Shown piece by piece: positions 7,787 through 59,902 of a stretch of 64,000 nucleotides of DNA; position 1 is the first letter of the stretch, and every line of letters starts with the position of its first letter. A program made the position numbers and the translations under genes. The stretch is from positions 1 through 64,000 of the forward strand of contig JANRLI010000016.1 of the NCBI GenBank assembly GCA_033762625.1, read 5' to 3'. The notes beneath the pieces were generated by a model that saw only the letters and a program-made list of their open reading frames with translations, was not told where the DNA came from and ran no database searches. Origin of the DNA: Alphaproteobacteria bacterium (GTDB lineage Bacteria; Pseudomonadota; Alphaproteobacteria; UBA9219; RGZA01).

Positions 7787-10144
7787 TTATGCTGCCTTTC
7801 CTGGTGCTGGCGCTGGTGGCGCAGCTTTGGCCCGCGGCGCCAGTTTATCCAGCGCTGCGTTACGTACTTGGGATGCTAGATTTGGGTCTGCGGCCGTGCG
7901 GCTGCACCCGCCGGGCCCGCATCCCGCGCAACCGGTGCAAGGGCCTTTGTTTTTATCAAAATCTTTTTTTGCTTCTGCAACATTTTGATCGCTAACCCTC
8001 AACTGAACGACCGTCGATCCATTGCCAGTAAGCGAAGCCCCCTTGCATCCGATACAACCCGATCCCTTGCTGGGGCAAACATCGCATCCGCTTTCGACTT
8101 TTACGTCTTTCTTATCTTTGGAATCCTTGTTATCGGCCTTCGCTTCTTGTGCGCGATCATTCGGGCGTTCCGGTAATTTCTGTTCTTTGGGGTCCGCTGT
8201 TTTTGCTTCACCCGCTTTGGGATCACCTGCCTTCGCTTCTCCACCCTTTGCATCACCTTGCCTTGCTTCGATGCGCGTTTCTTCACGCGCTTCGTGACGC
8301 GCTTCGTGACGCATGTGAACTGGCTGGCCTTTGGTAACATTTGCATCTGTGCCTGACGGAACGGAACGCGCTTCAACACCCTTCGCGCCCGTATCTGCAC
8401 CCATGGGCTGAACTGTGGTATCAACAGCCGTTTGAACCTGCACAGCAGCTTGGCCTTGCTGCACGGCAACGATTGGCGCATTCCCGGTTACTTGTGTGCC
8501 ACTAACTTGCGTTCCTCTAATCGGTGCTGCCGTTTGCTGCATGACAGGTTGAGATGCGATCGGCTGCGAGCCGTTCACTTGTGTAACCACCGGCTGTGTA
8601 ACCACGGGCTGTGCACCTGTCGGCTGCATTCCAGCTGGTTGCACATGTTGCTGGACGCTGGGTTCACGATGTTGGGGTGTCTGAACAACCGCCTGAACAA
8701 CCGGCTGAACAACCATTGGCGTACTGCGCGCAGGTGTTGTTTGAACAGAAGTGCTTTGCAGCGCTGCGTCTGCACTTGCAACAAGCGTTGTCACTCCGTT
8801 AGCGGGACGCGTGATGTTAAGCGCATTCGCGAGTGATTCCTGCATGGTGTGCACAGGTGATGTCACAACTGCTGCTCTGGCAACGGCCTGTTCTAGCGAA
8901 ACATTTGGCGAAATAGCGGTTACGGTTGTGCCTTTTGGTGTTTGCCGCGCCGCATCCACGCGCACTTGTTCAACTGCAACCGGCGCAGATTGTGCGCGCG
9001 CTTGAACATGCACATTTGCGGTTGCATTTAGCTGCACGCCGGTTGCTGACGCTTTTACGCCTGCATCAATGCGCGCCGCTGCATCAACGCGCGTTTGCGG
9101 CGTTGCGATTGGCGCAGTTTTGACTAGCACATCACCCTTTGTCACAGGCGCAATCGGTTGGCCTTTTGCATCAACGCGCACTTCTGCGATTTGGCCTTTT
9201 GCAATAGGCATTGTTTTTGCTTCTGCAGTTATTCGCGCATCCATTCTTGTGGGCGGTGTTGTCTTTATGTCAGCAGCTACTTTTACATCACCCTTCACAG
9301 CCGCATCAGCGCCTTTAGCAGCTGGAGCTATTTTTGCTTCCACCACTGGCGCTTTCATTTGCAAAATGGTTGCGGATGCACGCGGCGCGGTTGACACCAT
9401 GTTGAATTTTGCCTGCAAGCGTTCTACCTGCTGCATGACCATATTTTTAACGGCGATATGGCGCGGATCAACCGCAGGCAATGCGCGGATTGCTTGCGTA
9501 ATCGCAGCAATGGCCGCCGTTTTTTGCTCAGCGGTGGGCAGTTCCGCCTTGTTCTGCAAGCCTTTTTCAATCTGCTTGGTAAGCGCTTCAACCTGCTTGA
9601 ACACCGCCGTGAGGCCTTGCACGAATTTCTGTCCAGCAGCAATCATGCCCTGCACCACTTGCGATGAACCGCTGCGATCGGTCATCTCCAATTGCTTCAT
9701 CACCACATGTTGCAGGTATTGGATGCGGCGCAATTCCATCAGCAACCGCGTATCTTCTTTTTGTTCTTCGGTATAGTAAATGTATTGTGCGGTGACGCCG
9801 GCATCCGGAAACTTCAATTGCGCATCGGGCCCGTTTTTTAATGCGTCTTCCCCCTGCACCACTTCCAGCAAGACGCGCCGTTCCTTATTGCCGAATTTTT
9901 CCGCGCCATCAGCAATTTGATTGATTTGAAGTTGAGTGAGTTCTTTAATCGCTTCGCCCAGCTTTGCTCTGGTTTCGGCAGCCACGATGACGGGCTTTCC
10001 ATCCACCGTGAAACGATTCGAACCCATACGTTCAATCGTATCTTCAAGCTCGCGGAGAAATTCTACTTCACTGTCGTTATGGTTCTCCGGAGCATCAATC
10101 TCTGCTTCGGCCTTTGATAATACTGAATAATTGCGGGGTCTCAC
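7787..10144 (-). CDS. large unknown protein, disordered middle, C-terminal Cys clusters
   Basis: I do not recognise this ~785-residue protein. I place the start at the GTG at 10144. The frame stays open to an ATG at 10231, but that adds an isoleucine-rich stretch translated from AT-rich promoter-like DNA. The first ~230 residues are helical and charged. The middle ~450 are rich in Ala, Val, Gln, Pro and Thr and probably disordered, with many short TQPVV- and VDA-type near-repeats. The tail has two cysteine clusters: CDVCPSKGSGCIGC and CTGCAGCGPGGC. It heads the operon with the 50- and 194-residue cysteine proteins. A scaffold with metal-binding knuckles is a fair guess, no more. Confidence 0.75.
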   Translation of the reverse strand: MRPRNYSVLSKAEAEIDAPENHNDSEVEFLRELEDTIERMGSNRFTVDGKPVIVAAETRAKLGEAIKELTQLQINQIADGAEKFGNKERRVLLEVVQGEDALKNGPDAQLKFPDAGVTAQYIYYTEEQKEDTRLLMELRRIQYLQHVVMKQLEMTDRSGSSQVVQGMIAAGQKFVQGLTAVFKQVEALTKQIEKGLQNKAELPTAEQKTAAIAAITQAIRALPAVDPRHIAVKNMVMQQVERLQAKFNMVSTAPRASATILQMKAPVVEAKIAPAAKGADAAVKGDVKVAADIKTTPPTRMDARITAEAKTMPIAKGQIAEVRVDAKGQPIAPVTKGDVLVKTAPIATPQTRVDAAARIDAGVKASATGVQLNATANVHVQARAQSAPVAVEQVRVDAARQTPKGTTVTAISPNVSLEQAVARAAVVTSPVHTMQESLANALNITRPANGVTTLVASADAALQSTSVQTTPARSTPMVVQPVVQAVVQTPQHREPSVQQHVQPAGMQPTGAQPVVTQPVVTQVNGSQPIASQPVMQQTAAPIRGTQVSGTQVTGNAPIVAVQQGQAAVQVQTAVDTTVQPMGADTGAKGVEARSVPSGTDANVTKGQPVHMRHEARHEAREETRIEARQGDAKGGEAKAGDPKAGEAKTADPKEQKLPERPNDRAQEAKADNKDSKDKKDVKVESGCDVCPSKGSGCIGCKGASLTGNGSTVVQLRVSDQNVAEAKKDFDKNKGPCTGCAGCGPGGCSRTAADPNLASQVRNAALDKLAPRAKAAPPAPAPGKAA

Positions 10145-10325
10145 GATAAAGCCTATCTGGTACAGGGTGGTTATGCGACTAAGAATGATTATTAATAATG
10201 GTGTTATAATGATAATGATCCTTAATATCAATAAGGATCTTTATTAAATTATAATTTTGCTAAGTTGTTGTTTCTATGTATTATTTTCATTAATTGCCAT
10301 CCGCATCACAGCCACCAAACCGCGC

Positions 10326-20108: not shown

Positions 20109-22058
20109 TTAAAACTTCATCTTCACGCCAAGCGCAAATGTTTGCTCAAACGTGTTACCTGTTGGCAGGTTGACATCATAAGACCCAAACGCATCTACCG
20201 TCTCATCAAGCTTTACGGAAGTGCCAAAGCCAATAGCCAGCATATGGGAAGATGGCGTAACGCCTTTGCTTGAAAAACCCGTGCCAAGAACAGTTCCGGT
20301 TGTCGCTGAAATAGCATCAAGTGTTTCGTAGCTATATTTAATGCGTGCTTCGGGGGTTACATCCCATTCGCGAATGGTCGTGGGGCGGGCCACTGTTAGG
20401 CCAGTGATAAGACGCAGAGAGTGCGTGTCTTTGTCAGAAACCGTTGCATTAAAAATGCCTGCTCCTGTTTCCGTATAACCATCTTCGGCAAGAAGCACAT
20501 AACTTAACCCTGCTTTGGGAGTAAATGTATAACCATGCATGTTAATTTTTTTGCTGAGCTGTAGCCCGCTTGAAAATTCATGGCCGTCATGGCTGCTGCG
20601 CCCGATAAGGCCATTATTGGTTTCAAGGCGCTCTGTATCAATCATGTGCAGGGCATAGCCCAAGCGGGCATGCACGGAAATGTTATCGTCCAATTCTTTG
20701 CTGCCATACAACCCGAAGCGACCGGTGTTGCTTTCGCCCCCTGTGCTTGCGCTGTTGGTGGCAGTAATGCTTGTGTGCTCATACCCGCCCGCAGCACCAA
20801 TGCGCAGTCCTTTTTCCACTTCGCGGTCAACGCCAAACATAAACCCGCCTGTTTCGCTGTCATACCCTGATCCAGCCCCGCTGCTTTCAAGGCTCGCCAA
20901 ATTCCCGGTTGCCTTAAACCACCCGCCATATTGCTTCATCGCATTGGGCAAACCTTTAACAAGGTGGTTAAGTCCTTGGGTGTTTTCTTCAAGCGCGACG
21001 CCCTTCTGCGTCAAGGATGCAAATGACATCGGGTTATTTTGCGTGCCGCCACCCACGCCGCCAAGGTGATCAAAAATAGTTTCGCCCGCTTGGTGTGCCG
21101 CGCTAATGGTTGGGAAAGCAAACGTGCTGAATACATCTGTTTGTGTGGCAGATGCCAGCACATCAAATGTCACGGATGTGGGGTTATAGTTAAGCGCACT
21201 CACGGCAAGCCCTGCGGGCGCTGTCAAATTCACACTCGAAAATGTACCGGTCACAGTACCTGCAGTGAGCACTGTAAATGTTTTTGCAACATAAGTACCC
21301 GGATTGAATGTTACCACCAAACGACCATCCAACGCAGCAGTGCCCGCGACCGCAAGTTTGGATGCCGTTGTAGGCGATACCGTTATGGCAAGTGTTGCGC
21401 CCGAACCTTGTACATAATTTCCGCCCACTGCCAGAGTGCCAATGGTGCCGCTGCCAGGCGAAACCGTGCCGGAGTTGTTGGTTACATTCATATTTACTGT
21501 GCCATGCCCTGAAAGGGTCCCGCCCAACAGCGTGGTGGTATTTGTGCCATCACCAAAAACGGCGGTGCTATGCGCGACATCACCAATAATCAGTTCACCG
21601 TCAAAAACGGTCATCCCGCCCGCGTATGAACTGCTGATGCCGTTCAGTAAAAACCGGAAATTCGATTGCATGGTCAAACTACCGGTCGATGAAAACGCGC
21701 CATCAAAGGCAACAAGCCCGGCTGCGCCTATCGGCAGATTCTGATCCAAGGCAAAGTTACCACCGGTAATGGTAATACTTGTTGGGGTAAGTATTGAAAA
21801 ATCGGCAAGGTCAGTCAGTGCAGGCAAATTGCTAAGCAGCGTTATGGTGCCGCCATCAATGCTGCTACTAAAAAAAATGGTGTCAGATCCACCCAACGAA
21901 TTAGCATCCAAAATGGCTTGGCGCAAAGACCCCGCCCCGGAATCGTTTGTGTTGGTCACAAAAACAGAACTAGCTAATGCGGGAGAAGCCAGCAGGCCGA
22001 AAAGCGCACCCAACGCCGCACCAAAAAAATGGCAGGTTTTTTTAGAAAAAGAAAACAT
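20109..22058 (-). CDS. autotransporter-domain outer-membrane protein
   Basis: A 649-residue type V (autotransporter-like) protein. Signal peptide at residues ~10-30 (FFGAALGALFGLLASPALAS), then a passenger of ~300 residues rich in Gly, Thr, Ser and Asn that begins with VTNTNDSGAGSLRQAILDAN, a motif typical of beta-helix surface proteins. From about residue 380 comes a ~270-residue autotransporter beta-barrel (QYGGWFKATGNLASLES start, GGYEHTSI, TPEARIKYSYETLD), ending in ALGVKMKF with the required C-terminal Phe. The ATG at 22058 has a GAGG site. It is monocistronic. The passenger is too short and generic to assign an activity. Confidence 0.88.
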   Translation of the reverse strand: MFSFSKKTCHFFGAALGALFGLLASPALASSVFVTNTNDSGAGSLRQAILDANSLGGSDTIFFSSSIDGGTITLLSNLPALTDLADFSILTPTSITITGGNFALDQNLPIGAAGLVAFDGAFSSTGSLTMQSNFRFLLNGISSSYAGGMTVFDGELIIGDVAHSTAVFGDGTNTTTLLGGTLSGHGTVNMNVTNNSGTVSPGSGTIGTLAVGGNYVQGSGATLAITVSPTTASKLAVAGTAALDGRLVVTFNPGTYVAKTFTVLTAGTVTGTFSSVNLTAPAGLAVSALNYNPTSVTFDVLASATQTDVFSTFAFPTISAAHQAGETIFDHLGGVGGGTQNNPMSFASLTQKGVALEENTQGLNHLVKGLPNAMKQYGGWFKATGNLASLESSGAGSGYDSETGGFMFGVDREVEKGLRIGAAGGYEHTSITATNSASTGGESNTGRFGLYGSKELDDNISVHARLGYALHMIDTERLETNNGLIGRSSHDGHEFSSGLQLSKKINMHGYTFTPKAGLSYVLLAEDGYTETGAGIFNATVSDKDTHSLRLITGLTVARPTTIREWDVTPEARIKYSYETLDAISATTGTVLGTGFSSKGVTPSSHMLAIGFGTSVKLDETVDAFGSYDVNLPTGNTFEQTFALGVKMKF

Positions 22059-22308
22059 GTGGGGCCTCTTGCATTCAGTCAGGAAGGGATGGCGCTGACA
22101 GGCCCATAGAATAATAAAAAAACGCAAGAGGCCCATAGGAAAAATCATTCCCTGCCGTATATTGTGCAGACTTGTTGCTTATATGGCAGCCTTTGTGCAG
22201 CTATGAACCCGCTGAAATTCCTTCATTTATTGGCATTAAACTTACAAAAACCAATTATTGCTAAGATTTGCCTAATTATTTTTTAAGGCATTTTTAAAAG
22301 CATTTCTT

Positions 22309-37933: not shown

Positions 37934-39448
37934 ATGACTGACTACATAAAAAAAATTACTGCCGCGCAGGTTTATGATATTGCATTAAAAACGTCACTGG
38001 ATGAAATGCCGCGCCTTAGCCGGCGTCTTAACGCCGATGTGTTGCTCAAACGCGAAGATCTGCAACCTGTGTTCTCGTTTAAATTGCGCGGCGCCTATAA
38101 CCGCATTGTGCAATTATCGCAATCTGCGCGAAATTCCGGCGTCATCTGCGCATCCGCAGGCAATCATGCGCAGGGCGTCGCATTATCCGCGCAGCGCCTT
38201 GGCATCAAGGCGATGATTGTTATGCCCATCACCACCCCGCCAATTAAAATCGATGCCGTTAGGTATTTTGGCGGTGATGTAGTATTGCATGGTGATACCT
38301 TTGATGAAGCTTATTTGCACGCGCGCGATTTGGAAAAAAAGCATCAACTCACCTTTATTCACCCCTACGATGATGAAGATGTAATTGCAGGCCAGGGCAC
38401 GATTGGCATGGAAATCCTGCAACAATATCAGGGCCCGATTGAAGCGGTGTTTGTCCCCATTGGTGGCGGCGGTCTGGCTGCGGGTGTTGCGGCGTACATC
38501 AAACATTTTCAGCCGCATGTAAAAGTCATCGGCGTTGAACCGGTTGATGCCGCATCCATGAAAGCTGCAATTGATGCAGGCGAACGCGTTACCCTAAGCC
38601 GTGTCGGTTTATTCGCAGACGGTGTTGCGGTGCGTCAGGTCGGCGAAGAAACCTTCCGCATTTGCCGTGAATTGCTGGATGATGTGCTTACCGCCAATAC
38701 CGATGAAATGTGCGCTGCCATCAAGGATATTTTCGAGGATACACGCGTGCTGTCCGAAGCAGCGGGCGCGCTCGCATTGGCCGGACTTAAAACCTACGTT
38801 GAACAGCATCCGCAGCGCAAAGGCGCGCTCATCGCCATCAACAGCGGCGCAAATATGAACTTTGACCGCCTGCGCCATGTGGCAGAACGCGCCGATATCG
38901 GCGAAGACCGCGAAATTTTGCTTGGCGTTACGATTCCCGAAGAACCCGGCAGCTATCGCCGCTTTGTGCAATTGCTGGGGCCGCGCATCGTGACCGAGTT
39001 CAACTACCGCTATGCGGCTGGGCATGATGCGCATGTCTTTGTGGGCCTGCGCATGGATCATGCGCACACCGAAAAAGAAAAAATCATCACCGAACTTGCC
39101 AAAGCCGGATATAAGGCAATTGACATGAGCGCGGATGAAACCGCGAAGCTGCACATCCGCTACATGGTCGGTGGGCGCGCGCCAAATCTGCACAATGAAA
39201 TGCTGCTACGTTTTGAATTTCCGGAACGCCCCGGCGCGCTCATGAAATTTCTGGATAGCATGGAAGCCAGCTGGAACATTACACTGTTCCATTACCGCAA
39301 TCACGGTGCGGATTATGGCCGCGTGCTGGTCGGTGTTGAAATTCCGCACCAAGACCGCCAGCATTTCATCGCGCAATTGAACAAATTGGGTTATCCCTAT
39401 GAAGAAGAAACCAACAACCCGGTCTATCAAATGTTCTTGGGGCACTAA
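37934..39448 (+). CDS. ilvA: threonine ammonia-lyase, biosynthetic type
   Basis: A 504-residue PLP enzyme that deaminates threonine to 2-oxobutanoate, the first step to isoleucine. The PLP lysine is Lys50 (SFKLRGAYN), the phosphate loop is VPIGGGGLAAG, and SEAAGALALAG closes the core near residue 300. The C-terminal ~180 residues form two ACT-like regulatory units (TIPEEPGSYRRFVQLL and FEFPERPGALMKFLDSM), as in the isoleucine-inhibited biosynthetic enzyme. I start it at the ATG at 37934 after AAGAAA. Monocistronic. Confidence 0.95.
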   Translation: MTDYIKKITAAQVYDIALKTSLDEMPRLSRRLNADVLLKREDLQPVFSFKLRGAYNRIVQLSQSARNSGVICASAGNHAQGVALSAQRLGIKAMIVMPITTPPIKIDAVRYFGGDVVLHGDTFDEAYLHARDLEKKHQLTFIHPYDDEDVIAGQGTIGMEILQQYQGPIEAVFVPIGGGGLAAGVAAYIKHFQPHVKVIGVEPVDAASMKAAIDAGERVTLSRVGLFADGVAVRQVGEETFRICRELLDDVLTANTDEMCAAIKDIFEDTRVLSEAAGALALAGLKTYVEQHPQRKGALIAINSGANMNFDRLRHVAERADIGEDREILLGVTIPEEPGSYRRFVQLLGPRIVTEFNYRYAAGHDAHVFVGLRMDHAHTEKEKIITELAKAGYKAIDMSADETAKLHIRYMVGGRAPNLHNEMLLRFEFPERPGALMKFLDSMEASWNITLFHYRNHGADYGRVLVGVEIPHQDRQHFIAQLNKLGYPYEEETNNPVYQMFLGH

Positions 39449-39473
39449 TCTGTTACGCCGCGTACTGCGTGCT

Positions 39474-41675
39474 TTATTCCACTCTGTCAAATCCCCACAC
39501 AGCATTATTGATGCCGGGCTGGGTTGCTGCGCCAACCAGTTCAAGACGCAAATTATTATTCATATGGCGCGGTAATCCAAAGCGCAGCGTACGGTCAGAT
39601 AATTGCCATTCATGCACGCGGCGAACAACACCCGATGCCAGATCAGCCGAAAGTGTTTCGGTAAACGTGCCTTCCACTACATTGGTCGTGGGTCGGCCGT
39701 AAATGCGCACCAGCTCGCTCAGGATATTTTTATAATCACGCTCCAGTGCCGATGAACTATCGCTGGTGTTTTCAAACACCACACCATGGCGAACCAGCTT
39801 GCCGTTCTTTGTTTCATACACCACGCGTTGCGGGGTTGAAAGACGCGTGAACACATCATCGCTGACCACAATCATGCCATTTGATACATTCGCGCTAAGA
39901 TTTTCTTTTTTCAACTTTTCAAGCAGCGCGGTTTGCGTCATGCCCAATTCCGGCTTGCGCAGCAATTCATCGCTGGATACTTCCAGCGCCTCGGTTGCTG
40001 CCTTGCCTTCAACCGGCACAGCCACAGTTGCATCCGGCGCATTGCTGAAATGCACCGTATAATTCATGCCTACACGCCATGCGTGGGTGTCTTGGGCTGC
40101 GTCAGGATAGCGCTGGAAATAATCGCCCGATAGCGAAACGGTATGAATACCGGTGGTATAGCTATAACGGCCCGATGCGGTTTCACTGAAAATATGGTTG
40201 CTGGGCGGCACATATTCTTCTGTGTTGTTATTCTGGTAATTCACATTGAATGAATGGCCATAATAATTTGCATTCGCCGAAATCTGCGGGCCATATTGCA
40301 ATGAATGGCGCGCGCCGGTTGTGCTTTCGGTAATCACCATACCAGGACTTAAGGTTCCTGATAATTCACCAAAGGTCCATCGCCAATCCGCGCCCAGGGA
40401 ATGATCATGCGCCTCGGTTATCGCAGCGGTAATATTGTTATGCAGCTTGCGGTAACGAAAGCCATACCGGCCTGATACATCATCGGTAATCGTTTTCGTT
40501 ACATTCAATCCGGTTGTATAGGTTTGCGAATGCGTGGTTACGCTTTCATTGCGCAAATGCGTGGATGATGCATCAACCGACCCCGTCAGCCCATCAACCA
40601 GTGTGCCAAGCAGCGGCCCCGTTAAACGCACACCGTAAGTATTTTCAGTTAACGGGTTTGCCGTCTCCAGCGCGGATTCCGTGCGGTTCTGGCGGCCCGT
40701 TAAGCGAAGCCCGCCATCAAACTTCCAGCCAATCTGTGTTTCAAGATGGCTTTGGTTAGACTGCACACTACCCCCCGCAGGCTGATAATTCGTGCCATAG
40801 CGTTCAAACAAAACACTATAGGTCAGCGGGATTTTGCTGTGCCCCTCCAGACGCGTGAACAATCCCACATCCGTCTGATTGGTTTTGGGTGATGTGACCA
40901 CCGCGCCGGGTAAATCGCCATTCAATATACCAACTTCATTTTCAAAGCTCAGGCTTTGCCCCAACAGGTTCATATCGGTTGATGCGCCCAGCGACGTTAC
41001 ATTTTGTTGTAAGTCCAGCGATGAAACCGCGCTATCGGGTTTCTTGTAGTTATAAACATGATTGATAATGAACGAGCCATAGGCATCGTTTTCAGCAAGG
41101 TACGATGCACCGGTGAAAAAACTTTTATCAAAATTGACCTGACGGTAAATGCTCTGGTCAAACCCCGCCATGGCGTTAACAGAATGCGACCACGCACCGG
41201 AACTGCTTGGCTGCAATTCAATATTTGCGCCTTTTAACGGTAACTGCATGGAACGCGGCGAGAAGCTGGCATAAAAATCACCGGCATCAACCACATACGG
41301 CACTGCGCTTTCGCCGTTTTCCCATGTGGTTGAAAATTGCTCCACGCTTCCATTGCGGTACTGGCTGCGATAGTCGCTGCGGTTATAAAGTCCGTTAAAG
41401 CGGCCCTTGATGGATTGGTAAGGGGAAATTTCTTTTGAAAACTGCGCGTTGGTTTCGCCGTAAATCTGGTTGCCTGTATTCTGATACGGACTACCCGCCA
41501 GCGCGCCCGAATACTGGTAATTCGAAACATCCACTGACGCATCACCTTCAATCAGCCAGCCCGAAAGCGGGTCGAATGACACAGCATTTCCTTGGGCGCT
41601 TTCTTCTGCAAATGCTGGCGCAGCCAGCAGTAAGCCGGCCAGTGCGCATGATGTGAAAAGGAAGCGTTTAGTCAT
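39474..41675 (-). CDS. predicted outer-membrane beta-barrel with C-terminal soluble domain
   Basis: I do not recognise this 733-residue protein. A signal peptide (FLFTSCALAGLLLAAPAFAEE) is followed by ~530 residues of alternating amphipathic strands with Tyr/Trp girdles (YRSQYRNGSVEQFSTTW, SGRYGFRYRKLHNNIT, GRYSYTTGIHTVSLSGDYF). This is consistent with a large barrel of about 20-24 strands. The last ~180 residues are soluble (ELGMTQTALLEKLKKENLSANV; RYGRPTTNVVEGTFTETL) and would lie in the periplasm. It is the last of four consecutive genes for exported proteins, 8 bp after the previous one. It may be a channel or assembly platform for the secreted proteins upstream. Confidence 0.75.
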   Translation of the reverse strand: MTKRFLFTSCALAGLLLAAPAFAEESAQGNAVSFDPLSGWLIEGDASVDVSNYQYSGALAGSPYQNTGNQIYGETNAQFSKEISPYQSIKGRFNGLYNRSDYRSQYRNGSVEQFSTTWENGESAVPYVVDAGDFYASFSPRSMQLPLKGANIELQPSSSGAWSHSVNAMAGFDQSIYRQVNFDKSFFTGASYLAENDAYGSFIINHVYNYKKPDSAVSSLDLQQNVTSLGASTDMNLLGQSLSFENEVGILNGDLPGAVVTSPKTNQTDVGLFTRLEGHSKIPLTYSVLFERYGTNYQPAGGSVQSNQSHLETQIGWKFDGGLRLTGRQNRTESALETANPLTENTYGVRLTGPLLGTLVDGLTGSVDASSTHLRNESVTTHSQTYTTGLNVTKTITDDVSGRYGFRYRKLHNNITAAITEAHDHSLGADWRWTFGELSGTLSPGMVITESTTGARHSLQYGPQISANANYYGHSFNVNYQNNNTEEYVPPSNHIFSETASGRYSYTTGIHTVSLSGDYFQRYPDAAQDTHAWRVGMNYTVHFSNAPDATVAVPVEGKAATEALEVSSDELLRKPELGMTQTALLEKLKKENLSANVSNGMIVVSDDVFTRLSTPQRVVYETKNGKLVRHGVVFENTSDSSSALERDYKNILSELVRIYGRPTTNVVEGTFTETLSADLASGVVRRVHEWQLSDRTLRFGLPRHMNNNLRLELVGAATQPGINNAVWGFDRVE

Positions 41676-41683
41676 TTATGGTG

Positions 41684-42199
41684 CTAGCTCTTCTGGCGCG
41701 TCGTCAATTCAAACAGATATTCGCCCGACCCGCGAAGGCGGGTATTGCCGATACGCGCATCCTGGTAATGCACATCGGTCTCAACTTCGGCGGACACAAC
41801 GCTGACCAATAGCGGCCTACCATCATCGCCCTGCTTGGTTTTCTGGCCAATCACCTTGATGGCGCGGATGCTTTTAACCTCGATGCGCGCATCAAATGGC
41901 ACATGGTTATTCAGCGCGCTGATCAATTCACTACGGTTTGGAAAACGCTCGCCCAGATAGTTTTCAATATCCCCCGTGCCCCAATTCGCCATCAGCTTTT
42001 CAATCGCCTTGCGGATGAATTCCTGATCAAGTGATACGGTTGGCGCGCCGACAGGACCGCCGCTCTTGTCATCGGCCTGTAACACGCTGTCATTTTCAAA
42101 CGGGGTTTTGATGGCGCGTTTTTCACGGAATTCACGTGCATCCACGGGCGATGCCACCAGCATCAATCCGGCAACCAGCATCAGAATAATTTTTTTCAT
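41684..42199 (-). CDS. small exported protein, possibly NTF2-like
   Basis: A 171-residue protein with a signal peptide (KKIILMLVAGLMLVASPVDA). The body (FIRKAIEKLMANWGTGDIENYLGERFPNR; ARIEVKSIRAIKVIGQKT; VSAEVETDVHYQDARIG) has the helix-then-four-strand order of an NTF2-like fold, but this is a weak guess. It lies 13 bp after the 237-residue protein and 8 bp before the barrel gene. The ATG at 42199 has a GGAG site. No family is recognised. Confidence 0.7.
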   Translation of the reverse strand: MKKIILMLVAGLMLVASPVDAREFREKRAIKTPFENDSVLQADDKSGGPVGAPTVSLDQEFIRKAIEKLMANWGTGDIENYLGERFPNRSELISALNNHVPFDARIEVKSIRAIKVIGQKTKQGDDGRPLLVSVVSAEVETDVHYQDARIGNTRLRGSGEYLFELTTRQKS

Positions 42200-42212
42200 A
42201 TGCACTCTCCCG

Positions 42213-42926
42213 TTACAGTTTTACAAAACTACTGATGATCACGCTGCCACCGCCTGCCCCGTTGGTTTGTACCGTCAGTGTCATGCGATAGGTCACGCCG
42301 CCCTTTGAAATCTGTACATTCGGCGTTGCAAGCCCGCCGCCAAGTCCGGGGATAAGCGTTGTGATATTTGCAACCCAACCATTCAATCCGGTCACGGCTG
42401 CACTTACAGTGGTAAAGCTATCCACCTGTAATACACCGTTCAGCGCGGAAGGTCCTGCCGCCATCGAACATGCGCCATTACCCGACGCCGGGAACACCAG
42501 ATCCACCGATGGCGCAAATGCAAATGCCGCCGGAAAACGCGTACCATCAGGACAGGTCACAAGAGCTGTTGTTGCAGACGAAGATGTTGTCGTAACCGAA
42601 CGGGTTTCGGGGTCAATCTGGTTACGCACATCACTGACGCGGAAGGGGAGAATTCCGCCCGCACCTGCTGGGCGTTGCTTGAGCAATTTAATATCGACCA
42701 GTTCCTGATTGCGGCCATCGATTTTTATGGTTTGCAGTGTAGGTGCGGATTTTGAAACGGATTTTACTTCCGGTACCGCTGGCACAGGCTTGGGCGCCTG
42801 CACTTGACTAGGCGCTTGCGTAATCGAATAGGTTGCAACGCCTTCAAATTGCTTGAACGGCACAGCATGCGCAGGCAATGCCAGCAGCGCAACACTTATG
42901 CATGGAATGATAAAACTGCGGGTCAT
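42213..42926 (-). CDS. exported protein sharing a motif with the 980-residue protein
   Basis: A 237-residue protein with a signal peptide (IIPCISVALLALPAHA). A Pro/Val/Ala linker follows, then LVDIKLLKQRP...LPFRVSDVRNQIDP at residues ~76-108. This closely matches LVDIRLMKVKP...SPFTIGDVKNKIDP in the 980-residue protein upstream. The C-terminal ~100 residues are strands rich in Ala, Thr and Val with a Cys pair (VTCPDG, NGACSM), resembling a small beta-sandwich such as those of pilin-like or secreted fibre proteins. The function is unknown; the shared motif implies a common partner. Confidence 0.75.
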   Translation of the reverse strand: MTRSFIIPCISVALLALPAHAVPFKQFEGVATYSITQAPSQVQAPKPVPAVPEVKSVSKSAPTLQTIKIDGRNQELVDIKLLKQRPAGAGGILPFRVSDVRNQIDPETRSVTTTSSSATTALVTCPDGTRFPAAFAFAPSVDLVFPASGNGACSMAAGPSALNGVLQVDSFTTVSAAVTGLNGWVANITTLIPGLGGGLATPNVQISKGGVTYRMTLTVQTNGAGGGSVIISSFVKL

Positions 42927-43016
42927 TAAAGGGGGATGCCTCTACACAATTTGATTATTTTGGGTAACAAAATGGCGGTTTTTTTACAAGAAATGATTGC
43001 GCTAAGCCTGATAATA

Positions 43017-43054
43017 ATGGGGCAAGTCGTCATGAAAACCACAACCTGCCCCAT
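43017..43054 (-). promoter_or_regulatory. intercistronic hairpin
   Basis: ATGGGGCA-x-GTxGT arms pair over 14 positions (two as G-U) around a 10-nt loop, in the 174-bp gap between the 980- and 237-residue genes. The T run is poor, so partial termination or RNA processing is likely rather than a full stop. Confidence 0.5.
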
Positions 43055-43100
43055 CATACTCAAAAGTAAACCTCAAAAGCACCCATGCGCTAAGTTTTTA

Positions 43101-46043
43101 TTAAGGCTTATACGGATTGCATGCACGCGCCGCAGCATCACACCCTGATGGGCACGGCGCTACATTCATCGCCGCATCATGATAACAGGTGGTGAGTGTA
43201 TTGGCATCGGAGCAATAATTTCCATCCGCCTTTCCGGAACAAAATGGTGCAGAACCGCCTGATGCCGGGCCGGATGTACTGCGCAAACTACGTGGCGCAA
43301 TGGGCGCAGCAGGGGCGGTTGGCGCAATTCCATCATTGCCAAGACCTTTAGGCGCAGGTTTTCCATTACCTGCATCCGCATTTTCATTTGCCGCAGGGTC
43401 GATTTTGTTTTTTACATCGCCAATGGTGAAAGGCGACACACCGCTTAAGGGTTTTACCTTCATCAAGCGGATATCGACCAGCACATTATCCTTATCACCC
43501 ACTGCGCGCTTGTCACCGCCAGCGCGTTTGGGTTTTGCGGCATTCAGTGCGTTATCCAGATTTTTGCCATTGCCCAGCTTGTCTTTCAGATTTCCCTTCG
43601 CTGCGGCCTTGGTCAGATCATCGGCATGGGCTTCACCCTCGCGCTTATTCTTTTTGGTATCTAACGGGTCTGTATCCAGCCCGTTTTTCGACATGCCGCC
43701 AACCCAAGGCTTGATGTCCTTTGCTTTGGTTGCGCCGTTTTTGCCAATACCTTTTTCAATCAGCTTGCGCTCCTGTTCTTTGATTTTGCTGTAATCGGAA
43801 TAATACAATGATGTATCAGGTGCACAGCATGGGCTTTGCACATATCCGCTCTTGGTCAAATGGCACTTGGCGCGCGCATCCGTGCCTTTACCCGCAGCTT
43901 TCACGCACGCCTTGAGCGCGGCGGGCGTTTTGCATACCACGCGGAACAAATCCGGCTTGCCGTCAAACGCAGTACCAAAAGTGCAATTACCGTTTGAATC
44001 ATCCACCAGCTTCTTTGCCGCTGCCAGTTCTTCAGGTGTACGCTGCGATGGGTCATACGTATCTACATATGCGCTGCCGCCGCCAAATACTGCCGCCACA
44101 CAACATGGTTTTTCGACTAACCCTCCAGCGCCGATTTTGCATTTTTCCTGTCCGAAGGTGTTTTTACACGTGGTGCGATTGGCTTCGCTGCCGCATGAAA
44201 TAATGCGCGGGTCATAGGTCAACAGATTGTCCACCGAATAGCCGCCAACCGAACATGCCTGCGCAGGTTCGCCGCCATGCGTTTCCACAAATTTCTTGAC
44301 GACCGCAACACCTTCCACACTGTCCAGCCCATCCGGATTGAATGAACAGCATACGGTGGTGGCACGGCCCAAATCATCAACCGCCTTGGGGTCGCATACG
44401 CGCTGGTTCATCCAGCTGAAATGATTCTGGCATGCCTCATAGGTTTGCTTCAGCGTGCACACAACTTTCAACGGATCATTAGGCGTGGTGGTACAGAACG
44501 GTCCACCACTTTCCTTGGCAACCTTGGCTGCAAACTCCATCGCCATTTGCTCGCCCTGGCTGGGTTTTTCGCCGCCCTTACAACATGGAATTTCATTTCC
44601 GCCCAATTCCAGCGTGCTGGATACGCAAGCTTTGGGGTATGCCTTTGTACATACATCTAACCCTTGGCCATCCTGACATTTAATCAGGTTACGCATGGCG
44701 GAATCCGTGCTGCACAGCCCGCCGGTTTTTCCGGTCATCGCATAGGTCAGGTTTTTCTGAATGGTATTGCGCGCCTTATCCATATCCCATGGATGATAGC
44801 TAGATGGGCTATAACTCACAAAATCATCGCAGACGGTTTCAATCGGCACATCATTGAACGCCGCAGCAAAGATATTCGCTTGCGGATAACGCTGCACGAA
44901 ATACTGCTTACAGGTTGCGCGCACCTCTTCCTTGACTTTCTTGAACTCCGCATCGCCAATCAACGCCGCGCCTTCGGCTTTGGGCTTCACGTTCTTTTTG
45001 TAATAATCGCCGCGTTCCACCTGGAATTCGGCCCATTGCAATTTGCCCATGGATTGCACGATGTAGCGGTCACGCAATATCGCACATACTTTTTTGGAAT
45101 TGCTTGCCGACAAATTGGTAGGCTCAAAATAATCATAGCATTTTTGGTAAAGCGTATTGGCTAAATCCTTATAGCCATCCTTACCCAATTCGGGCACAAA
45201 CATCTGCGCATAATATTGTTCGAACGGAATGTGATCGCCGCCAATCAATCCCAAACCTTCCGCCAGTGCGCCGCCCGCTGAAACTACAAATCCCACAACC
45301 TTACCGGCAACGCTTTCGCATGCAGCAGCCGCCACATCACTCACGATGGGAATGGAACCAATGCCGGAATATTCTTCAGCCAGCTTGCAGGCCACTTTGG
45401 GCCCCATGGTGGTAATCATGGTTTCAAGGGCCGCGCCGTAATTTCCATCCTTAATCGACTTCAAGATGGAAATGGTTGTTCCTACAATCTGATCAACCAG
45501 TTTTTCAGACGGGAAGTTACTGTCAAACGCGGCATCGCATTCGCAATCCCAATTCGTCAGAATTGGCCCCAGATAAGGAATGGCGGAGATTTCGGAATCT
45601 ACCGCACTTTTACCCTCACTGATCTGGTCAGCCAGCAAGTTGCGCAGAAAATCCGCTTTGCTCTTGCCCAGATATTCATCGCCCTTGCGGTCGATAAACT
45701 GATAAGCCTGCTGGATGGGCTGATAGCTTTTGCAATTCCCGCCGTTGATGGGCAACAGCTTGGGGATGCTTTGCAGTTTGGTAACTTTCAACGCGCCAAT
45801 AAATCCAACCAGCGAATAATCCTGCTCCAGCGTATAGGCTACAATGGTGCTGGCACATACCGGATGCTTGATTGCGAAAATGGTAGCTTCGCGTTGGTCA
45901 TTATCCAGCCCCAATAACGGACTAATTTTTTCGAGCACATCTTCCCATGATGGCCATCCGGCATGCGCAGGTGGTGCGCCAAGCACCATAAAACATGCAA
46001 AGCTTGCAGCGATTATCCGCTGGAATAGGTGTATCTTGGCCAT
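43101..46043 (-). CDS. 980-residue exported protein with four six-cysteine modules
   Basis: I do not recognise this protein. A signal peptide (IIAASFACFMVLGAPPAHAG) is followed by ~400 mostly helical residues with scattered cysteines. Then come four tandem modules (residues ~444-488, 517-566, 597-648, 687-740), each with the order C-x(11-19)-C-x8-C-x(7-13)-C-x(11-14)-CC. After a basic Lys/Gly linker comes LVDIRLMKVKP...DVKNKIDP (~855-888), a motif shared with the 237-residue protein, then a Pro/Ala stretch and a final six-Cys knot. The regular cysteines imply disulfide-bonded repeats, outside the cytoplasm. It heads the four-gene export locus, with a GGTCAAG/CTTGACC repeat upstream. Confidence 0.8.
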   Translation of the reverse strand: MAKIHLFQRIIAASFACFMVLGAPPAHAGWPSWEDVLEKISPLLGLDNDQREATIFAIKHPVCASTIVAYTLEQDYSLVGFIGALKVTKLQSIPKLLPINGGNCKSYQPIQQAYQFIDRKGDEYLGKSKADFLRNLLADQISEGKSAVDSEISAIPYLGPILTNWDCECDAAFDSNFPSEKLVDQIVGTTISILKSIKDGNYGAALETMITTMGPKVACKLAEEYSGIGSIPIVSDVAAAACESVAGKVVGFVVSAGGALAEGLGLIGGDHIPFEQYYAQMFVPELGKDGYKDLANTLYQKCYDYFEPTNLSASNSKKVCAILRDRYIVQSMGKLQWAEFQVERGDYYKKNVKPKAEGAALIGDAEFKKVKEEVRATCKQYFVQRYPQANIFAAAFNDVPIETVCDDFVSYSPSSYHPWDMDKARNTIQKNLTYAMTGKTGGLCSTDSAMRNLIKCQDGQGLDVCTKAYPKACVSSTLELGGNEIPCCKGGEKPSQGEQMAMEFAAKVAKESGGPFCTTTPNDPLKVVCTLKQTYEACQNHFSWMNQRVCDPKAVDDLGRATTVCCSFNPDGLDSVEGVAVVKKFVETHGGEPAQACSVGGYSVDNLLTYDPRIISCGSEANRTTCKNTFGQEKCKIGAGGLVEKPCCVAAVFGGGSAYVDTYDPSQRTPEELAAAKKLVDDSNGNCTFGTAFDGKPDLFRVVCKTPAALKACVKAAGKGTDARAKCHLTKSGYVQSPCCAPDTSLYYSDYSKIKEQERKLIEKGIGKNGATKAKDIKPWVGGMSKNGLDTDPLDTKKNKREGEAHADDLTKAAAKGNLKDKLGNGKNLDNALNAAKPKRAGGDKRAVGDKDNVLVDIRLMKVKPLSGVSPFTIGDVKNKIDPAANENADAGNGKPAPKGLGNDGIAPTAPAAPIAPRSLRSTSGPASGGSAPFCSGKADGNYCSDANTLTTCYHDAAMNVAPCPSGCDAAARACNPYKP

Positions 46044-46116
46044 GAAGGGTCTCGGTCGAAGGAACAGAAATTAGGAGCGTTATTGCCCCTAAACCTTGCC
46101 GGACTCTTGTTGTTTT

Positions 46117-46139
46117 GGTCAAGACAGGATTACTTGACC
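46117..46139. promoter_or_regulatory. inverted repeat GGTCAAG-N9-CTTGACC
   Basis: Perfect 7-bp arms about 75-95 bp upstream of the 980-residue gene. On the minus strand its right arm includes TTGACC, a plausible -35, so a bound repressor would cover the promoter. Confidence 0.45.
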
Positions 46140-46150
46140 GGTCCGTCTGA

Positions 46151-46363
46151 CTACCTGTTCATTTCCGGGGTGTGGCCTGAAAGCTCGTCACGTAATGCTA
46201 AAAGCACATTACGATGAATATCCGCAAGCATGCGGGTAGTGGGTGAAATCATACCGGCAGGTAACGGGGCGCCTGCACATTTCAACGCTTCCGCACCGTG
46301 CCATTCGCGCTTCGTGCCAAGGCTCGATAACTGGGTCAGCTTCACTTCAGTGATAATACTCAC
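46151..46363 (-). CDS. small unknown protein
   Basis: A 70-residue protein starting with GTG at 46363, with a strong GGGGAGGGG site. It overlaps the end of the upstream gene (GTGA), which supports coupled translation. One cysteine (LKCAGAP); the C-terminal half is helical (MLADIHRNVLLALRDELSGH). No family is recognised. Confidence 0.55.
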   Translation of the reverse strand: MSIITEVKLTQLSSLGTKREWHGAEALKCAGAPLPAGMISPTTRMLADIHRNVLLALRDELSGHTPEMNR

Positions 46364-49104: not shown

Positions 49105-49234
49105 TTGTCAATTGCGTCAGAATGAGGCGAAAATGCGGGGTTCCGAGAACCGGAGCGCAGCGTACATTTAAGTACGTGAGCACCGGAAGCGCAGGAATAC
49201 CTTCATTTGCAGCCCATTATCACGCAATTAACAA
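49105..49234. repeat. structured dispersed repeat, copy 1
   Basis: A 130-bp element with long inverted ends (TTGTCAATTGCGT / ACGCAATTAACAA, 12 of 13 paired), an imperfect inner stem and two hairpins: GGTTC-CGA-GAACC and CCGGAGC...CGTAC-ATTTAA-GTACG...CCGG. It shares ~115 bp with the copy at 59782-59902; differences in the stems are paired. It lies in the divergent gap between ubiA and lemA. Confidence 0.85.
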
Positions 49235-59781: not shown

Positions 59782-59902
59782 AAGTTACGTCAGAATGAGA
59801 CGAAAATGCGTGGTTCCGAGAACCGGAGCGCAGCGTACATTTAAGTACGTGAGCACCGGAAGCGGAGGAACAGCGCATTTGCAGTCCATTATCACGTAAC
59901 TT
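59782..59902. repeat. structured dispersed repeat, copy 2
   Basis: A 121-bp element, partner of 49105-49234. The ends AAGTTACGT / ACGTAACTT pair perfectly, and the same two inner hairpins are kept. It sits in a convergent gap and ends 2 bp before the hisZ stop codon, so it is the 3' untranslated part of hisZ mRNA on the minus strand. Confidence 0.85.

Follow-up and report, generated by a model that had tools for sequence, protein, structure and literature searches.

The window, i.e., the whole stretch of 64,000 nucleotides analysed here, contains a cassette of four genes in the order P1-P2-P3-P4, all located on the minus strand and with P1 at the head (Table 1). The sequence-only reading had assigned a protein of 980 residues to the P1 interval; its coordinates and length hold, the strand being the minus one, and the plus-strand reading of the same interval is full of stops. 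P2, P3, and P4 are separated by just 7-8 nucleotides, whereas 174 nucleotides lie between P1 and P2, so that P1 may belong to a transcription unit of its own. Scans for promoters and terminators at the cassette gave results at or below the level of shuffled sequences and hence were not used. For P3, a better start is the ATG at 42199, preceded by GGGAG.

Table 1. Features of the P1-P4 cassette, of the P1 protein, and of the second P3-P4 locus of the same genome (window positions unless a contig is given).
Feature	Position	Strand	Description
Cassette	39448-46162		6.7 kb; homology with G002 ends at 39447 and returns at 46163
P1	43101-46043	-	980-aa secreted Cys-rich protein; reads 46043 to 43101
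P1 N-terminal region			to about residue 410; different from the modules, helical-looking
P1 module region			residues 414-746; four modules
Module 1	44571-44798	-	residues 416-491; Cys 444, 456, 465, 473, 487, 488
Module 2	44337-44555	-	residues 497-569; Cys 517, 529, 538, 550, 565, 566
Module 3	44091-44321	-	residues 575-651; Cys 597, 617, 626, 635, 647, 648
Module 4	43815-44039	-	residues 669-743; Cys 687, 704, 713, 727, 739, 740
P1 low-complexity linker			between the modules and segment 847-883
P1 segment shared with P2	43395-43505	-	residues 847-883, ...VDIRLMKVKPLSGVSPFTIGDVKNKIDP
P1 C-terminal six-Cys region	43104-43271	-	residues 925-980; Cys within 935-975
P2	42213-42926	-	237-aa secreted protein; GxxP[FL] segment and beta-rich-looking C-terminal domain
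P3	41684-42205	-	173-aa secreted protein; conserved partner immediately before P4
P4	39474-41675	-	733-aa outer-membrane protein; predicted barrel and C-terminal domain
C7 P3-P4 locus	G000:C7:245000-252000 (L005:7000-13900)		P3-P4 pair and 746-aa coiled coil with P2-like tail

The P1 protein starts with a signal peptide, judged by eye, that spans residues 1-28 (MAKIHLFQRIIAASFACFMVLGAPPAHA), and it contains 41 cysteines in total. The six cysteines that had been described at the end of the chain are present, and about 195 cysteine-free residues lie between them and the modules. Secretion and disulfide richness of P1, as had been proposed, are well supported, and DsbB is encoded in the genome. 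Taken as a whole, the sequence-only reading is supported in part: it agrees with the results on secretion, on disulfide richness, and, within the searches made, on the lack of a named domain (see below), and it overlooked the cassette, the N-terminal region, and the segment that P1 shares with P2.

The four modules had been defined by the pattern C-x(11-19)-C-x8-C-x(7-13)-C-x(11-14)-CC, with a constant x8 spacing and a terminal CC pair. A regular-expression search disclosed exactly four matches in P1, spanning residues 444-488, 517-566, 597-648, and 687-740. Even one match was obtained in just 1 of 5000 shuffles of the whole protein and, when residues 441-746 were shuffled keeping the number of cysteines, none of 20,000 shuffles reached four; thus, chance is excluded as the source of the four modules, and P1 really harbors four copies of one cysteine framework. 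Other features recur in all of them, that is, hydrophobic residues before the second cysteine (LIKC, KVVC, IISC, and RVVC in modules 1 to 4, respectively), a glycine six residues ahead of the CC pair (GGNEIPCC, GRATTVCC, GLVEKPCC, and GYVQSPCC), and a likely helix preceding the first cysteine.

In order to compare the modules, each pair was scored against shuffles in which the cysteines were held fixed. A clear similarity emerged between modules 3 and 4 (z 4.2, 4/1000), and a suggestive one between modules 1 and 4 (z 2.4); the remaining pairs are not significantly similar. A common descent of all four modules is likely on the basis of the shared cysteine framework and of the tandem order, residue similarity giving no proof of it. 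Since only the 3-4 pair, and weakly the 1-4 pair, rise above chance, one might think that modules 3 and 4 alone are the outcome of a true duplication, and that modules 1 and 2 reached the same cysteine spacing by convergence within a cysteine-rich stretch; this appears unlikely, given that the x8 spacing, the terminal CC, the glycine at -6 from it, and the preceding helix occur in four modules out of four, and that no shuffle of the module region produced four matches.

The search for relatives of P1 agrees with the earlier statement that no named domain shows this pattern. Neither the whole P1 nor the single modules matched Pfam; the whole P1 had no NCBIfam family at E<=1 and no match in PHROGs, and nothing among the PDB sequences was matched by P1 or by a profile built from the four modules. 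A profile of the modules, when searched against 385 genomes of the class, recovered only the four modules of P1 itself, the remaining weak matches being judged as chance (the two best contain stop codons). P1 is also absent from 58 related genomes, from viral contigs, from plasmids, and from the GTDB contigs scanned with the pattern. A phage or plasmid origin was considered and rejected, as neither P1 nor P4 has a match in viral contigs and plasmids, and P4 has none in phages.

An AlphaFold2 model of module 4, whose input was a four-row alignment with modules 1-3, is a compact alpha-beta-beta-alpha-beta arrangement (pLDDT 79, pTM 0.65). This fold is provisional for the modules, because it is predicted from one module, and because modules 1 and 2 are not perfectly placed in the alignment of four rows. 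The model had no convincing match in the PDB (best Foldseek E 0.79); a likeness to the SMC hinge was not counted, since the best VIA-align score (Z 4.2) was tied with unrelated folds. The cysteine module of P1 would represent a new small disulfide domain.

As to the six-cysteine end, a search for relatives disclosed just weak or stop-interrupted matches. The C-terminus (FCxGKADGxY...CP.G) bears a weak and tentative resemblance to the CBM14 (peritrophin-A) chitin-binding domain of human chitotriosidase, with just E 0.28 against 6so0 in phmmer; the cysteine spacing differs from that of CBM14, and P1 has no match to Pfam at E<=10.

The flanks of the cassette are 83-84% identical to those of a genome of the same genus (G002), in which the corresponding slot holds other genes (OmpA-like, glutamate-cysteine-ligase-like, and others, named by eye). 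Because the homology with this genome has sharp edges, and because P3 and P4 were not found in genomes G001-G004, the cassette is a discrete unit, either gained here or lost/replaced in G002. A 67-bp repeat is present in two copies, 97% identical, at window positions 49131-49197 and 59804-59870, outside the cassette genes; a copy of about 51 bp adjoins the slot in G002 (L074:14278-14328).

Within the cassette, P1 and P2 share a short segment (residues 847-883 and 69-106, respectively) with the consensus VDIxLxKxxP...G..PF...DV.N.IDP. Its Smith-Waterman score is 85, against a mean of 38.7 (sd 5.3) for shuffled sequences, none of which scored as high in 2000 trials. No match to the PADLOC models of anti-phage defence was obtained for P1, P2, and P4, and that of P3 (E 0.054) falls short of an anti-phage assignment; no description of the cassette was found in the literature.

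The P4 model obtained with AlphaFold2 from 11 homologues (pLDDT 77) is disordered up to residue 34 and is predicted, with moderate confidence, to contain 26 strands over residues 40-544, the first barrel strand being at residue 40, followed by a C-terminal alpha/beta domain at 567-716. Eleven members of the family matched nothing in Pfam or NCBIfam, and P4 carries no known secretion-pore signature. All the Foldseek matches of the model are outer-membrane barrels, and the lowest E-values include those to the FimD usher and to MtrB (TM 0.38/0.42 against 6r2q_B, MtrB). In VIA-align, AlgE ranked highest (Z 18, over 327 residues at 8 A), whereas the fit to FimD covers more residues at a lower rmsd (371 residues at 5.7 A). 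These are generic matches between barrels, and they assign no function. Nine members of the P3 family had no match in Pfam, and P3 had none among the PDB sequences, so that these searches gave no fold assignment for it.

Of the 289 genomes of the class searched with a P4 profile, seven matched, including the source genome, the others belonging to three families. In all the alphaproteobacterial loci that were read, P3 is located directly before P4; the same order is present in Minwuia and in the gammaproteobacterium Tamilnaduibacter salinus, and a sampling of the phylum added other gammaproteobacterial families. The named carriers of P4 are Minwuia species, Kordiimonadales bacterium IMCC3096 (a complete genome), and T. 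salinus. The source genome itself harbors a second P4 on contig C7, a paralogue 28% identical to the first, directly preceded by a paralogue of P3 (34%). Ahead of this pair lies a coiled-coil protein of 746 residues, the end of which consists of a P2-like segment and a tail that looks beta-rich, so that at this locus the long protein and P2 appear to be fused. Matches of this coiled coil to the PADLOC models LmuB/JetC are weak and probably compositional.

The gene ahead of P3 almost always encodes a secreted, P2-like protein carrying a Gx[N]P[FL] segment; in many cases, a large protein with a coiled coil or tandem repeats lies next to it or is fused to it. At some loci, the large proteins ahead of the P2-like genes are helical and about 1100-1700 residues long; the repeats of the upstream proteins differ, being PALRFG at one locus, KPMVVNVTRQG at another, and other short repeats elsewhere. 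A Pfam scan of eight neighbour proteins at other P4 loci gave a clear FecR match and one borderline, unrelated match. In the alignment of the P2-like proteins, the proline of GxxNP is the sole invariant residue besides the initial methionine, the glycine and the asparagine being nearly invariant. A short profile of this family-wide segment did not place P1 and P2 of the window above shuffled sequences, and a BLAST search with P2 retrieved two P2 proteins of the Minwuia type (E 2.5e-4 and 1e-3); their link to the family-wide segment thus rests on position and on the BLAST matches of P2.

A few gammaproteobacterial and Minwuia loci show further features. At locus L055, a FecR-domain protein (L055:6011-7141) and then a short-repeat P2-like protein stand between P4 and P3, and the P4 at L053:2390-5326 has an N-terminal extension that is SPOR-like by eye. 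A DFKPxN ... DRDG/DVD stretch is present in large secreted proteins at three P4 loci (L017:2621-5929, L019:15560-18820, and L020:2513-5944). The likeness of DFKPxN...DRDG in the large proteins of the Minwuia loci to a protein-kinase active site, seen by eye, was discarded, Pfam being empty for the two that were scanned.

On these grounds, we consider that there is about an even chance that P1, as a surface protein with a structural or adhesive role, is the variable passenger of a swapped and so far undescribed outer-membrane cassette for display or secretion. No homologue of P1 or of its modules is present at any other P4 locus, and hence the passenger role rests on position and on one segment of 37 residues. 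More tentatively, and with a probability clearly below even, the cassette might represent a new type of secretion or display, in which P4 and the constant P3 export diverse large proteins marked by GxxNP[FL], P1 being one such cargo, whose disulfide-rich repeats would have a fold not seen before. To our knowledge, families lacking a Pfam, NCBIfam, PHROGs, or PADLOC model rarely occur together with an outer-membrane barrel in a multigene unit that is conserved. The arrangement described here, in which P1 adjoins an undescribed barrel and two helper proteins with relatives beside other large repeat proteins elsewhere, points to a system for surface display or secretion that has not been recognised so far.

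In such a system, P1 would cross the inner membrane via its signal peptide, and its four modules, of 75-80 residues each, would be oxidised in the periplasm to give small disulfide-locked alpha/beta domains. These domains could form a protease-resistant stalk between the N-terminal helical region and a small six-cysteine tip, the latter possibly binding a ligand. P4, as a 26-strand barrel, would be the outer-membrane platform through which P1 might be exported or displayed, with P2 and P3 as its dedicated secreted partners, and the GxxP[FL] segment of P1 and P2 would dock on the P3/P4 machinery.

The absence of relatives of P1 wherever they were searched for, and the 174-nucleotide gap, might also suggest that P1 is an orphan secreted protein that merely lies beside P2-P3-P4 and acts alone in the envelope or in the extracellular matrix. 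We regard this as rather improbable: P1 and P2 have a highly significant segment in common, many P4 loci have large secreted proteins at the corresponding position, and the boundaries of the cassette enclose P1 together with P2-P4. Barrels of the size of P4 also handle non-protein substrates, as in the case of LptD. That P4 is a glycan or lipid exporter of the AlgE/LptD/GfcD kind, with P1-P3 as envelope proteins of the pathway rather than cargo, is quite unlikely, even though AlgE ranks first in VIA-align and LptD is likewise a 26-stranded barrel (PMC11494523), since the fit to AlgE is a generic one between barrels, with FimD aligning more residues at a lower rmsd, the loci read contain no consistent glycan-synthesis, flippase, or lipoprotein genes, and P4 loci bring large repeat proteins instead.

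Returning to P1 as a passenger, the cassette may work, by analogy, like a dedicated passenger/barrel pair, and by the tests run here it is not a member of any known family. It resembles two-partner secretion (type Vb, FHA/FhaC) in having a large secreted repeat protein beside a dedicated outer-membrane barrel. TpsB proteins carry N-terminal POTRA domains followed by a 16-strand barrel, and TpsA passengers an N-terminal TPS (haemagglutination activity) domain. P4 differs in its 26 predicted strands, in the lack of POTRA before the barrel, and in its additional C-terminal domain; the cassette also has two further secreted partners (P2 and P3), and Pfam disclosed no TPS domain in P1 or in the eight neighbours at other P4 loci. 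Chaperone-usher pili (FimD/PapC) share a large barrel with a C-terminal domain, which is among the best structural matches to P4, and a short segment common to the secreted subunits; however, P4 has no usher family match and 26 rather than 24 strands, and no Ig-like chaperone was recognised in the Pfam and PDB sequence searches with P3. MtrB/PioB are 26-strand barrels, a count that the P4 model reproduces with moderate confidence, but P4 has no family match, and CxxCH motifs, which would point to a multihaem cytochrome partner, do not occur in P1-P4. In Myxococcus TraA/TraB, tandem cysteine-rich surface repeats (TIGR04201), encoded beside an envelope partner, have been proposed to form a rigid stalk (PMC3325183). 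P1 would be similar as a surface protein with tandem cysteine-rich repeats and a partner gene for the envelope; nevertheless, it matches no NCBIfam model, TIGR04201 included, neither a PA14 domain nor MYXO-CTERM was found, and P4 is not OmpA-like.

Two other proteins encoded on the minus strand of the window deserve mention. The one at 7787-10231 (814 residues, no Pfam family) has a low-complexity middle part rich in Ala, Gln, Val, and Thr and a CxxC-rich end (CDVC, CIGC, CTGCAGC), and it is stylistically, though weakly (E 0.16), similar to one encoded close to the C7 locus. The other, at 20109-22148, is an autotransporter beta-domain protein (PF03797), i.e., a separate surface protein.
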